Shown: one piece after another, positions 6,953-55,449 of the stretch | How positions within the stretch are numbered: position 1 is the stretch's first letter | How the letters are laid out: each line of letters opens with the position of its first letter | DNA from: Prochlorococcus marinus str. MIT 9107 | GTDB taxonomy: Bacteria; Cyanobacteriota; Cyanobacteriia; PCC-6307; Cyanobiaceae | Reading direction: 5' to 3' | Assembly: GCF_000759855.1 (NCBI RefSeq) | Contig: NZ_JNAI01000006.1 | Location: forward strand, 124,001 to 188,000 | Length of the DNA stretch: 64,000 nt | Notes under the pieces: generated by a model | Told to the model about the DNA's origin: nothing | Database searches by the model: none | What the model saw: only the letters and a program-made list of their open reading frames with translations | Position numbers and translations under genes: made by a program

Positions 6953-7264
6953 TTAGTCCTTTTGACCAAGAAATTCACCGTTACCTAGAGCAGGTTCAAC
7001 TTCTCTATGAGGACGAGCAATAATGTGAGCTGCAACTAAACCGTCACCAACTCTTTCACATGCATCAGCACCAGCTCTAACAGCTGCGTTAACTGCGCCT
7101 GTTTCGCCTCTAACTAATACTGTGACATAACCGCCACCAACGAATTCACGACCAATAAGGCGAACTTCTGCTGCCTTGGTCATTGCGTCTGCTGCTTCGA
7201 TTGCAGGTACAAGTCCGCGTGTCTCGATCATGCCGAGAGCGATACCCATTGTTTCTGTAGCCAT
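6953..7264 (-). CDS. csoS1: Major carboxysome shell protein CsoS1 (BMC hexamer)
   Basis: The 103-residue bacterial-microcompartment protein whose hexamers tile the shell facets. A single BMC domain spans nearly the whole chain: ALGMIETRGLVPAIEAADAM, then VRLIGREFVGGGYVTVLVRGETGAVNAAV and ARPHREVEPAL. It is the first gene of the operon. Only one csoS1 copy is present here, the condition in Prochlorococcus, whereas several proteobacteria carry three. Its upstream region (7265-7592) is long for this genome and contains a repeated motif and a hairpin. Confidence 0.98.
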   Translation of the reverse strand: MATETMGIALGMIETRGLVPAIEAADAMTKAAEVRLIGREFVGGGYVTVLVRGETGAVNAAVRAGADACERVGDGLVAAHIIARPHREVEPALGNGEFLGQKD

Positions 7265-7282
7265 TGCCTACTAATTACTAAA

Positions 7283-7296
7283 TGTGGAATGTTCAA
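7283..7296 (+). repeat. Copy 1 of the TGTGGAATGTTCAA motif
   Basis: Fourteen bases identical to those at 7514-7527 and, on the other strand, at 55148-55162. This copy ends 19-32 bases upstream of the csoS1 start codon, so it probably lies in the csoS1 leader. The sequence identity is direct; the function is unknown. Confidence 0.6.
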
Positions 7297-7490
7297 TCCG
7301 AAGAATGCTCCATTAGGTACTTAGAAGTCAAGCGTTTTTTGTAAATTCTCCATTAATGTTTTTACTATCATTGATAAGATAAACTTATCACCCTTGGTAC
7401 TATTGATATGTCAATACTTATTAAAATCAGTTAGTGCATCAAAACATACTGTTGTGTTAATAAAAAATTTACATTATGTTATTTGCGTAC

Positions 7491-7540
7491 GAGACAGGCC
7501 CTGTCTACACAGGTGTGGAATGTTCAACCTCTCCTGTCTC
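7491..7540 (+). ncRNA. Candidate structured RNA or operator: palindrome plus alternative hairpin
   Basis: AGACAGG-C-CCTGTCT (7492-7506) is a perfect palindrome. GAGACAGG at 7491-7498 can instead pair with CCTGTCTC at 7533-7540, with an inner AGGT/ACCT helix (7511-7514 with 7527-7530). The second fold would display GTGGAATGTTCA, the repeated motif, in the loop. Two mutually exclusive folds resemble a switch, but a DNA operator is equally possible. No known RNA family was recognised. Confidence 0.35.
7514..7528 (+). repeat. Copy 2 of the TGTGGAATGTTCAAC motif
   Basis: A fifteen-base copy in the same orientation as copy 1. It is identical over all 15 bases to the reverse complement of 55148-55162. 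It lies 65-79 bases upstream of the ham1 start and about 250 bases upstream of csoS1, in the loop of the possible hairpin. Confidence 0.6.
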
Positions 7541-7592
7541 TGTATCAATCTTTGAAGTAAGATAATATTCTCAACATATTAACTTTATCGTT

Positions 7593-8177
7593 TTGAGTAT
7601 TCCGGTACTAACTATTGCGAGTGGAAATCCAAGAAAGGTCTCTGAAATTTCAGAAATGTTAGATGTTTTATCTTTAAGAGTTGAAAAACAACCCGAACAT
7701 TTAAACGTTGAAGAGACTGGAGCTACATATCTTGATAACGCCTTTTTAAAAGCCAATGCAGCTTCTTTAGAAACAAAAACCTGGACTTTAGCTGATGATT
7801 CAGGTCTCGAAGTAGATTACTTAGATGGCAGGCCAGGCATATATTCTGCTAGATATGCAAGAAATAATGTTGAAAAAATTAAAAAATTAATTAATGAACT
7901 TAGTGATAGCCCATATAGAAGTGCAAAATTCATAAGTTGCATGGTTTTATGTGACCCCTCTGGAAACTTAGTTAAACAAACCACAGGTATATGTTGGGGT
8001 GAGATTCTTAAGAAACCAAAATACCCAAATGGAGAATTCGAATCTATTTTTTGGGTTAAAGAAGCTAATTGCGTATATGGTGAGCTTAGTCAATCACAAT
8101 TAAGTAAATTGGGTAGCAGAGGCAAAGCAGCAAAAATCATGTCACCTTTTTTAAAAAAGGCAATTGGCTTAAAGTAA
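7593..8177 (+). CDS. rdgB: Non-canonical purine NTP pyrophosphatase (Ham1/RdgB family)
   Basis: This 194-residue enzyme hydrolyses dITP, XTP and ITP to monophosphates, keeping deaminated purines out of DNA and RNA. The family signatures TIASGNPRKVSEISEML at the N-terminus, ETGATYLDNAFLKA, LADDSGLEVDYLDGRPGIYSARYA and the C-terminal SHR-like LGSRGKA are present. The start is a TTG (MSIPVLTIASGN), the only start that fits the family N-terminus. It is divergent from the carboxysome operon, a neighbour pair I recall from other marine picocyanobacteria. Confidence 0.93.
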   Translation: MSIPVLTIASGNPRKVSEISEMLDVLSLRVEKQPEHLNVEETGATYLDNAFLKANAASLETKTWTLADDSGLEVDYLDGRPGIYSARYARNNVEKIKKLINELSDSPYRSAKFISCMVLCDPSGNLVKQTTGICWGEILKKPKYPNGEFESIFWVKEANCVYGELSQSQLSKLGSRGKAAKIMSPFLKKAIGLK

Positions 8178-52848: not shown

Positions 52849-55125
52849 TTACAACTCTGCTGGATTAACATCAATTGTTAAAAAAACGTTTTTTGGAATA
52901 AGTTTCCATAATATTGATCTATCAGGCAAAGGTATATTTGAGCCCTCAGGACCATATATTAATATCTGCCATCTAAATTTTTTCCCAACTTTAGCAATTA
53001 AACCTGGAGCAGGACCAATTAATTTCCAGTTCTTTCTCTTACAAAAATTTAGTAGATATTTTGCTAATTTTATTGCAATTGATTCAGTCAATTCATAATT
53101 TTCACCTGATAGTTTAAGAAGGCAAATTTTGCAAAATGGAAATAAATTAGCATCTTTTCTCAATTTCGAATTTTCAATTAAAAATCTTTCGTAATCTCTT
53201 TTCTGAAGATATGAAATTACAGGATGGTTTGGTTTATATGTTTGAAAAATAACTTTTCCTTTTTTTTGAGCCCTGCCTGCCCTGCCTGCTAATTGTAAAA
53301 ACAATTGTAATGATTTTTCTTCTGCCGAAATATCTGGACGATGAAGCAATCCGTCTGCTGCGATAACTACTGAAAGAGTTATATTGGGGATGTCAATCCC
53401 TTTGGCTAACATTTGAGTTCCCACAAGAATATCAGCATCACCTTTAGAAAATCTTGAAAGAATATCTCTATGACCATCCTTTCCTGAGGTTGTATCTCGA
53501 TCAAAGCGAAGTACTTTTAAGTCAGGAAATTCTTCATTTAAAAACTCTATAACTCTTTGTGTACCTATTCCAAAAGGTTTGAAGGCATTTGAATTGCAAT
53601 CGGGACAACGATTGATCAGTCTTGATTTATGATTACACCAATGACAACTTAACCATTTTTTTCCTTGTGAACCAAGATGTACTGATAAAGGGATATCACA
53701 GTTGGGACATTGTATTAAATATCCACAATTTCTACAACTTAAAAAACCACTATGTCCCCTTCTAGGGATCAAAATTATTGCTTGTTCATTCTTTAAACGT
53801 AGTTGAGGAAGTAATTCTAATAACTCACTGGATAAAATTTTCATATTGCCTTTCTTAAATTCATCTCGCATATCAATAATTCTTATTTCAGGCACTTCAT
53901 TTCTGGATATCCTTTGAATCATTCGTACCAATTTAAAATTCTTTTCATAAATACACTTTTTCCAAGTCTTCATTGATGGGGTTGCACTCCCAAAGATTAG
54001 CTTTGCAGAGTTTCTTTTTACTATTTCAATAGCAATCTCTCTTGCGTCATAACAAGGCATAGGGCTATCTTGTTTATAGGAAACATCATGTTCTTCATCT
54101 ATAATTATTGACCCTAGATTTTTAATTGGAAGAAAAACTGCAGACCTTGTTCCTATTACTATTAGAGGTTCATTAGCATTAATAATTTCCTTCCAAACTA
54201 AAGTTCTATGACTAGAAGAACAGTTACTATGATATTCGTAAACAACATTATTAAATCGCTGACTAAATCTATCAATAAGTTGAGGAATTAGTCCAATTTC
54301 TGGGGCAAGTATCAAACAACTTTTTTTCTTAAGTAATTGATCTTCAGAGATTCTCATATAAACTTCTGTTTTACCTGAACCTGTTTCGCCCCAGAGAAGT
54401 AACGATTCTCCAGGTTTCATTTTTTGAAATTGTTGAAATGCAATTTCTTGCTCATTTGTAAGATTTGGTTTTTTCGTTTCAATATGATCTTTAAAAAAAG
54501 AATTTAATTTAGTATTAATAGTTTTTTTTCTTTTAGATTTAACTAGATAATTTTTACTAATCATTGAATTAATGAGACTATAATTAAAACCAGACTTTAT
54601 TAATTCACTTTGCCAATTACCTTTTTCGGGCAAAGTATTTATTAAAAAAAATTCTTTTTTAGTCAATTCATTTTTTTCTAGATCAAATTCTGTTTTGGGT
54701 TCAATCCATATTTGAGCTCTTAACCCTTGAGAAATTTTTTTATATTTACCAATCCAACCTGGAGGAAATGCCGTTTTAAGCATTTTTAAATTACTAACCA
54801 TATAAAAAGAAGCTAGGGCCTCTATCCATTCTCTCCAATAATCATCAATTATTTTTTTCTGCAGAATACCTTCAACAAACGAATATCTTATACTTCTTCC
54901 TGCAGTAAAATTGCCTTCATCTTTATTAATTGTCGAAAAGTTTTCTTTGGAGATCACCAACCCATTCAATAATCTCCCTCTTAATTTCACAATTACAATA
55001 TCCCCAACTTCTACTCCAAGATTATTTCCATCTAAATAGTAAAAGCTATTATTACTACTACCTATATCAAGCAAAATTTCCAATTTATAGGATATATTTA
55101 ATAACTGATTACTTGCCGGCTTCAA
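52849..55125 (-). CDS. priA: Primosomal replication protein N' (PriA helicase)
   Basis: A 758-residue superfamily 2 helicase that restarts stalled replication forks. The Walker A motif is LLWGETGSGKTEVYM, the DEEH box is IIIDEEHDVSYKQ, and the zinc-binding cysteines form CRNCGYLIQCPNC and CHWCNHKSRLINRCPDC. Helicase motif VI is LQLAGRAGRAQKKG. The first codon is TTG at 55125. The stop abuts the DUF3153-like gene. The long upstream gap (55126-55449) carries the third copy of the repeated motif, 22-37 bases before the start. Confidence 0.95.
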   Translation of the reverse strand: MKPASNQLLNISYKLEILLDIGSSNNSFYYLDGNNLGVEVGDIVIVKLRGRLLNGLVISKENFSTINKDEGNFTAGRSIRYSFVEGILQKKIIDDYWREWIEALASFYMVSNLKMLKTAFPPGWIGKYKKISQGLRAQIWIEPKTEFDLEKNELTKKEFFLINTLPEKGNWQSELIKSGFNYSLINSMISKNYLVKSKRKKTINTKLNSFFKDHIETKKPNLTNEQEIAFQQFQKMKPGESLLLWGETGSGKTEVYMRISEDQLLKKKSCLILAPEIGLIPQLIDRFSQRFNNVVYEYHSNCSSSHRTLVWKEIINANEPLIVIGTRSAVFLPIKNLGSIIIDEEHDVSYKQDSPMPCYDAREIAIEIVKRNSAKLIFGSATPSMKTWKKCIYEKNFKLVRMIQRISRNEVPEIRIIDMRDEFKKGNMKILSSELLELLPQLRLKNEQAIILIPRRGHSGFLSCRNCGYLIQCPNCDIPLSVHLGSQGKKWLSCHWCNHKSRLINRCPDCNSNAFKPFGIGTQRVIEFLNEEFPDLKVLRFDRDTTSGKDGHRDILSRFSKGDADILVGTQMLAKGIDIPNITLSVVIAADGLLHRPDISAEEKSLQLFLQLAGRAGRAQKKGKVIFQTYKPNHPVISYLQKRDYERFLIENSKLRKDANLFPFCKICLLKLSGENYELTESIAIKLAKYLLNFCKRKNWKLIGPAPGLIAKVGKKFRWQILIYGPEGSNIPLPDRSILWKLIPKNVFLTIDVNPAEL

Positions 55126-55147
55126 AACTTTTTCTTAGTATTGGATT

Positions 55148-55162
55148 GTTGAACATTCCACA
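55148..55162 (-). repeat. Copy 3 of the TGTGGAATGTTCAAC motif
   Basis: The + strand reads GTTGAACATTCCACA, so the motif faces leftward, towards priA. It is identical over 15 bases to 7514-7528. The site is in the presumed leader or promoter of priA. Confidence 0.6.
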
Positions 55163-55268
55163 AAGTGTTTTTTGCACATTGTAAGTATCCTGCTCTTAAG
55201 GGAGACATGAAGCTTTGATCATTGAGTGAAAATTCAAAAACTGATCTGCCTGTCTGAGAAATCCCAAG
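55160..55268. ncRNA. Candidate structured RNA between priA and sigA
   Basis: Two stem-loops are possible. One is at 55160-55182 (ACAA-A-GTG, loop, CAC-A-TTGT). The second, at 55195-55268, has the outer pairs CTT..GGGA with TCCC-AAG, then GACA with TGTC, then GATCA with TGATC, followed by ACTTTTTAC. Bulges are frequent, so the structure is only suggestive. No 6S, SRP, tmRNA or RNase P signature was found in it. Confidence 0.25.
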
Positions 55269-55436
55269 ACTTTTTACTTTAGGTAATCTATAGCACTATT
55301 TAAATTTTTCAACAATTCTAAAAAACTTTTTTAATCACATTTCGAGAAAAAGTTCTTTATGAGATTAAGGTAATTTTTACTACTAAATGTACAAATTAGC
55401 CCTAAATAAAATTTTATCTAGTTAAATTCACCGTAG

Positions 55437-55443
55437 AAAGGAG
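55437..55443 (+). promoter_or_regulatory. Strong ribosome binding site of the sigma factor gene
   Basis: AAAGGAG lies 6 bases before the ATG at 55450. It fixes the start and is one of the clearest Shine-Dalgarno sites in this window, where many genes have none. Confidence 0.7.
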
Positions 55444-55449
55444 TCCATT

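Follow-up and report, generated by a model that had tools for sequence, protein, structure and literature searches.

The window analysed here is a stretch of 64,000 nucleotides of Prochlorococcus marinus str. MIT 9107, in which csoS1, encoding the major shell protein of the alpha-carboxysome (6953-7264, minus strand; NCBIfam NF053791, above cut-off), stands divergently to an rdgB/HAM1-like nucleotide pyrophosphatase gene (7593-8177, plus strand), whose best NCBIfam match, TIGR00042 with 136.5 bits, scores below the cut-off of 145.35. The gap between them (7265-7592) and a second one near priA and rpoD (55126-55449) are, with ORFs of at least 80 amino acids, the only gaps longer than 300 bases in the window. 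Within these two gaps the word TGTGGAATGTTCAA occurs in three exact copies, at 7283-7296 (plus), 7514-7527 (plus) and 55149-55162 (minus), which we refer to as sites A, B and C; B and C are identical over 15 bases. The gaps and the copies are thus as described in a first-pass annotation made from the sequence alone, which had considered a chance origin of the repeat improbable because of its length. This argument does not hold, since repeated words are plentiful in the window: it contains 192 repeated 14-mers, where 20 first-order Markov copies average 123, and 69 repeated 15-mers, where they average 39. The conclusion itself stands, however: TGTGGAATGTTCAA is the sole 14-mer with three copies in the window (0.4 expected), Markov copies of the two gaps had a 14-mer in common in only 3 of 2000 trials, and the conservation of the repeat across the genus led us to reject chance as its origin.

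The whole genome (1.7 Mb), which carries rbcL besides csoS1, priA, rpoD and the rdgB-like gene and is probably of the high-light type, contains four exact copies, none with one mismatch and 18 with two, while the same word written backwards gave 11 hits in all. The fourth exact copy, D (G000:C7:56228-56241, L004), is the only coding one and lies at the 3' end of an ABC-transporter-like frame, where it reads LWNVQ, so that the motif is not purely intergenic. An exact copy was present in 247 of the 266 genomes of the window's genus, including all 87 with at least 90% completeness and at most 5% contamination, with no hit of the backwards control among the genus genomes listed. Across 271 genomes the exact 14-mer was found in 89, 87 of them from the window's genus and only 2 from the 184 genomes outside it; in other genera, sites A and B persist as GAACATTCC, mostly followed by A, C or T plus CC. 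Neither a scatter through coding DNA nor a lack of conservation at the same positions in relatives, the two outcomes that the first-pass annotation had named against its motif, was observed.

The predicted csoS1 start and the hairpin at site B

Site A, read on the minus strand as TTGAACATTCCACA (7283-7296), lies 18 bp before the csoS1 ATG and downstream of a predicted promoter (7303-7331, minus strand) consisting of TTGACT (7331-7326), a spacer of 17 nt and GCATTC (7308-7303). The TTGAC is conserved upstream of csoS1: of the 83 distinct regions before csoS1 that contain both elements, 78 have exactly 37 nt from its start to the start of GAACATTCC (8-25 nt in the remaining five), a -10-like GCATTGT or GCATTCT lies in between, and the ATG follows 26-34 nt downstream of the motif start. 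The exact core GAACATTCC is absent from 21 of 104 csoS1 upstream regions. From the fixed distance and the -10-like word, transcription is predicted to begin with the motif, and site A would accordingly mark the start of the csoS1 mRNA. A generic promoter scan listed neither this promoter nor those predicted below for B and C. Between A and B, an inverted repeat, TGATAAG-N5-CTTATCA (7372-7390), is largely kept in other genera and is perhaps a transcription-factor site for csoS1.

Site B, UGUGGAAUGUUCAAC (7514-7528, plus strand), is complementary to A and C and falls into the bulge (7514-7532) of a hairpin at 7491-7540, which is formed by a stem P1 (7491-7498 with 7533-7540) and an inner stem P2 (about 7500-7513). 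The B sequences were gathered through the core GAACATTCC, and the invariance of the core in the resulting alignment A1 (47 of 71 extracted sequences) is therefore by construction, but this gathering involved no selection on the stem or the promoter of B. Among the 47 aligned sequences, P1 had 77 cells altered on both sides compared to 26.6 (sd 4.1) in shuffles, and a covariation of 0.446 compared to 0.102-0.166 when the stem was slid; of the ten pairs, the outermost two are unpaired in most sequences (33/47 and 28/47). Although P1 covaries, some folds engage part of the region that would have to be exposed for pairing; RNAalifold predicted P1 but not P2 and paired part of the motif. A covariance model, R1, matched the window at 7475-7559 with 66.4 bits and found 24 of 46 genomes, each with a single match except for three g22 genomes with two. 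In the g22 genomes G371, G376 and G366 (L239, L240, L241) we observed an additional hairpin whose loop contains TGGAATGTTCAACC, with a similar A/T-rich stretch upstream and small ORFs downstream, which differ at each place; the hairpin of L240 contains 15 nt (GGGATGGAATGTTCA) complementary to g22's own csoS1 leader.

The spacing of A and B is 231 bp in the window and 230-238 bp in most genomes, but 257 and 292 bp in two and about 1.6-1.9 kb in freshwater-type genomes, and strict helical phasing of the two sites was rejected on account of this variation. In one freshwater-type genome (G284, L164), sbtA-sbtB (Pfam Sbt_1 and P-II) separate B and rdgB from A and csoS1.

The direction in which B is read was assessed in 67 sequences (without L116, L209, L211 and L213). 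A sequence TAnnnT stands at a fixed distance before P1 in the rdgB direction in 64 of them, with at most 23 in shuffles, whereas the csoS1 direction gave 23/67, a number that shuffles also reach. TTG precedes the TAnnnT by 17 nt in 29/67 and by 16-19 nt in 30/67 (shuffles at most 10). In the window, these elements correspond to a predicted promoter at 7452-7480 (plus strand) with TTGTGT (7452-7457), 17 nt and TATGTT (7475-7480). Judged by this conserved -10-like and -35-like spacing, B would have the promoter of its own that is expected of an antisense sRNA. Non-standard pairs also favour the rdgB direction when each stem is taken in its own register, with G-U in 9 and A-C in 4 of 27 distinct stems, but less clearly in fixed columns: there are 19 G-U against 31 A-C cells over all ten P1 pairs and 17 against 10 over the inner eight, and P2 outside the window's genus has 28 G-U against 8 A-C. 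Folding energy favours neither strand (35 vs 31, 1 equal). We predict from these patterns that the B RNA runs away from csoS1, towards rdgB. A generic scan reported no terminator-like site in 7200-7700, and with neither promoter nor terminator from the generic scans, B may be just a leader.

Since the same word is read on the minus strand at A and on the plus strand at B, the two RNAs would be complementary, and the B hairpin would thus carry an antisense copy of the predicted csoS1 mRNA 5' end. The suggestion of a small-RNA seed site in the first-pass annotation comes close to this reading, but the opposite reading directions of A and B went unnoticed there. Another of its suggestions, a dispersed element that would connect genes for carboxysomes, purine repair and replication restart, was not borne out: A lies in the predicted csoS1 transcript, the B RNA is predicted to run towards rdgB, and for the RNA at C the predicted direction is towards rpoD and away from priA. 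To regard the repeat as a single DNA site present three times is probably wrong.

The predicted A:B duplex of the window has an energy of -23.8 kcal/mol, which is beyond anything obtained with 500 shuffled leaders (mean -9.5, best -18.6 kcal/mol) and is in line with what an antisense sRNA requires of its target; the B:C duplex was predicted at -24.2 kcal/mol. In 57 pairs of A and B, the five positions that follow the core show 55 differences of a kind that preserves G-U pairing, 2 of the opposite kind and 12 others. Of the 55 favourable differences, 42 represent two changes common to the window's genus, and B is in part constrained there by P2. In addition, A and B are both changed to ATCCC in G416, and in G383 they have an unusual tail, ATTCC, in common.

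Sites A and B also tend to be present or lost together. Among 90 genomes, all of them from outside the window's genus, the A core survives in 54 of the 56 genomes that have B but in only 15 of the 34 that lack it (Fisher p 1.7e-8, with species not independent); counted by genus, the split is 20/2 with B against 8/14 without (p 0.0004). The comparison omits G282, G284, G370, G371, G372, G376, G378, G386 and G420 (each with a match in a search) as well as genomes in which the start of csoS1 could not be read, among them G335 and G434. Regarding borderline cases, B was called by eye at its place in G416, where R1 gives no match, and was accepted in G425 with an R1 match of only E 0.013, while three genomes were scored as lacking B despite weak R1 matches: G362 (0.41), where a remnant lacking the core occupies the B place, G344 (0.07), where the match is located elsewhere, and G436 (0.06), where it is site A itself. 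Within g18, A is intact in the member with B and broken in three without it, but some members of g15, g20 and g31 without B still have an intact A, and further exceptions are G347 (B intact, A changed) and G388 (A intact, B changed). The joint loss is compatible with RNA pairing, but also with a common protein.

A putative RNA between priA and rpoD

Site C, read as GTTGAACATTCCACA (55148-55162, plus strand), lies at the predicted start of an unannotated RNA between priA and rpoD (55148-55310, plus strand, 3' end approximate), which is recognizable by conserved blocks and is preceded by a predicted promoter (55113-55141, plus strand) with TTGCCG (55113-55118), 17 nt and TAGTAT (55136-55141) that is conserved. 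The C RNA contains a block GGGAGACATGAAGC and later GTCTGAGAAATCCC, the latter common to other genera. Rfam searches gave only weak matches for the C RNA, none of them credible, and no match above the gathering score anywhere in the window; a tRNA, a tmRNA or a known Rfam RNA at the sites was rejected by these searches. 6S RNA was likewise rejected as the identity of the C RNA, as the MED4 6S RNA adjoins purK in the portions of the literature consulted.

A related RNA with a different 5' hairpin is present between priA and rpoD in several other genera, where it begins with GTTGGACAGCC or similar, whereas the motif at C is confined to the window's genus: the core GAACATTCC was found in none of 30 priA loci of other genera. 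It is quite possible, although we lean slightly against it, that C is a chance match and that only A and B belong together. The starts found in other genera are already half similar to the motif, the coding copy D shows that chance copies arise, and one base is changed at C in G032 and G066, two genomes that were picked for lacking the exact copy. Against chance stand the rarity of a word common to both gaps in the Markov trials and the position of C at a predicted start, with the genus's own tail CCACA. Should C belong to the system, our guess is that the C RNA acts as a decoy for B.

Readings of the three sites

The sites, the covarying P1, the promoter-like sequences, the complementarity and the association of A with B were all obtained by computation, and the explanation that we favour, with moderate confidence, is that B is an antisense leader or sRNA that pairs with the carboxysome mRNA, with C maybe as a decoy. 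Transcription of B would proceed away from the carboxysome operon and yield either a short RNA with structure or the 5' leader of rdgB; its hairpin leaves a bulge, UGUGGAAUGUUCAAC, whose sequence is the complement of the first nucleotides predicted for the csoS1 mRNA. B and this mRNA would pair and thereby set the amount of CsoS1, the product of the first gene of the carboxysome/Rubisco operon; as to the route, we can only guess at a lower ribosome loading or an mRNA laid open to decay. The C RNA, which in the window's genus has the same 15 nt at its start, could also pair with B and may thus act as a decoy. Pairing as the mechanism appears likely from the sequences, and we infer the transcription of B and C, the pairing itself, the sign of its effect and the role of C.

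A proposal that had already been made in the first-pass annotation is that of operators, according to which A, B and perhaps C are bound by one DNA-binding regulator, with B placed 231 bp (22 turns) upstream of A and possibly looping. This would accommodate that A overlaps the predicted start of csoS1 and C that of the C RNA, that A and B are lost together, and that the 231-bp spacing recurs in several genomes besides the window. Nevertheless, it explains less than an RNA does and we regard it as improbable, since B lies within a covarying stem of RNA type with a promoter-like sequence of its own, the spacing varies (230-238, 257 and 292 bp, and about 1.6-1.9 kb), and the absence of any one-mismatch copy from the genome is unusual for the sites of a regulator, which are expected to be degenerate. 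The joint orientation of A and B could instead mean that B is transcribed towards csoS1 within an extended leader of csoS1 or sbtA, the two sites being duplicates of a single RNA element recognized by a common protein or RNA partner, and in G284 B indeed precedes sbtA in that direction. We consider this still less probable than operators, because no conserved -10 is found on that strand (23/67, reached by shuffles) and 9 of 27 stems would have A-C in place of G-U.

An RNA pair could also work in reverse, with B as a cis-acting leader on which the csoS1 mRNA acts, so that rdgB is the target and the carboxysome operon the regulator. The G284 arrangement, where B stays by rdgB though sbtA-sbtB split it from csoS1, and the lack of a detected terminator after B in the window are in favour of such a flow; however, A, and not just B, goes missing when B is lost, and we know of no link from nucleotide clean-up to carboxysomes. 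Of the explanations weighed here, we give this one the least credit.

Beyond the favoured explanation of B as an antisense leader or sRNA, one can envisage a circuit of three RNAs, in which, throughout the picocyanobacteria, B pairs with the carboxysome mRNA at its very 5' end; in the window's genus a new RNA, C, located before the gene of the principal sigma factor, has acquired the same 5' end as a decoy, so that carboxysome output is coupled to growth with no protein regulator involved; and in g22 copies of the antisense hairpin have come to lie on the leaders of small membrane-protein genes. In this extended form we regard the proposal as speculative and rather doubtful. Prochlorococcus and its relatives account for much of the CO2 fixation in the ocean and have very few regulatory proteins. 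Few regulators are likewise mentioned in the abstract of PMC2518516. If B acts as proposed, RNA pairing could tune the CO2-fixing compartment of an ocean cyanobacterium, and a concrete and testable regulator of the carboxysome mRNA would exist across the family. The several lineages without B, in which the target core is also gone more often than not, offer a natural experiment.

Relation to known RNAs

No description of B or C was recognized in the literature text searched, which took in neither supplements nor subscription papers. Neither mapped transcription starts nor an antisense RNA described for carboxysome genes turned up in the text accessible to the search, including that of PMC7368042, PMC4499774, PMC1904183 and PMC3898218, nor were the queried terms found in PMC5069720 and PMC5607370. 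Among the entries listed in MED4 ncRNA tables, one of which runs up to Yfr17, none lies at the A, B or C loci. In the accessible text of an ncRNA screen from 2005, Cluster 87, a structured region of 336 nt that precedes the rbcLS cluster of MIT 9313 and WH 8102, was marked as not tested and attributed to a conserved promoter (PMC1242208). This cluster probably covers the region before csoS1.

In an excludon, divergent transcription joins two neighbouring genes via a leader RNA that overlaps the neighbour gene. B is alike in its divergence, but its predicted course leads away from csoS1, and it contains another copy of the sequence instead of overlapping the gene. Yfr1/Yfr10 and Yfr2 of Prochlorococcus MED4, as far as they are described in the parts of PMC2518516 and PMC6778093 consulted, resemble B in that a short exposed motif is complementary to other RNAs, but the motif of the Yfr1/Yfr10 family, ACUCCUCACAC, is absent from the B and C sequences, which we therefore do not assign to this family. 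Yfr10 itself is reported in these portions to target csoS1 and csoS2, so that B might not be the only RNA partner of csoS1. According to the part of PMC5306279 that was accessible, RblR of Synechocystis is, like the proposed B, an antisense RNA on a cyanobacterial carbon-fixation gene; it is a cis-antisense RNA of rbcL, whereas B would arise from a divergent promoter and does not overlap its proposed target.
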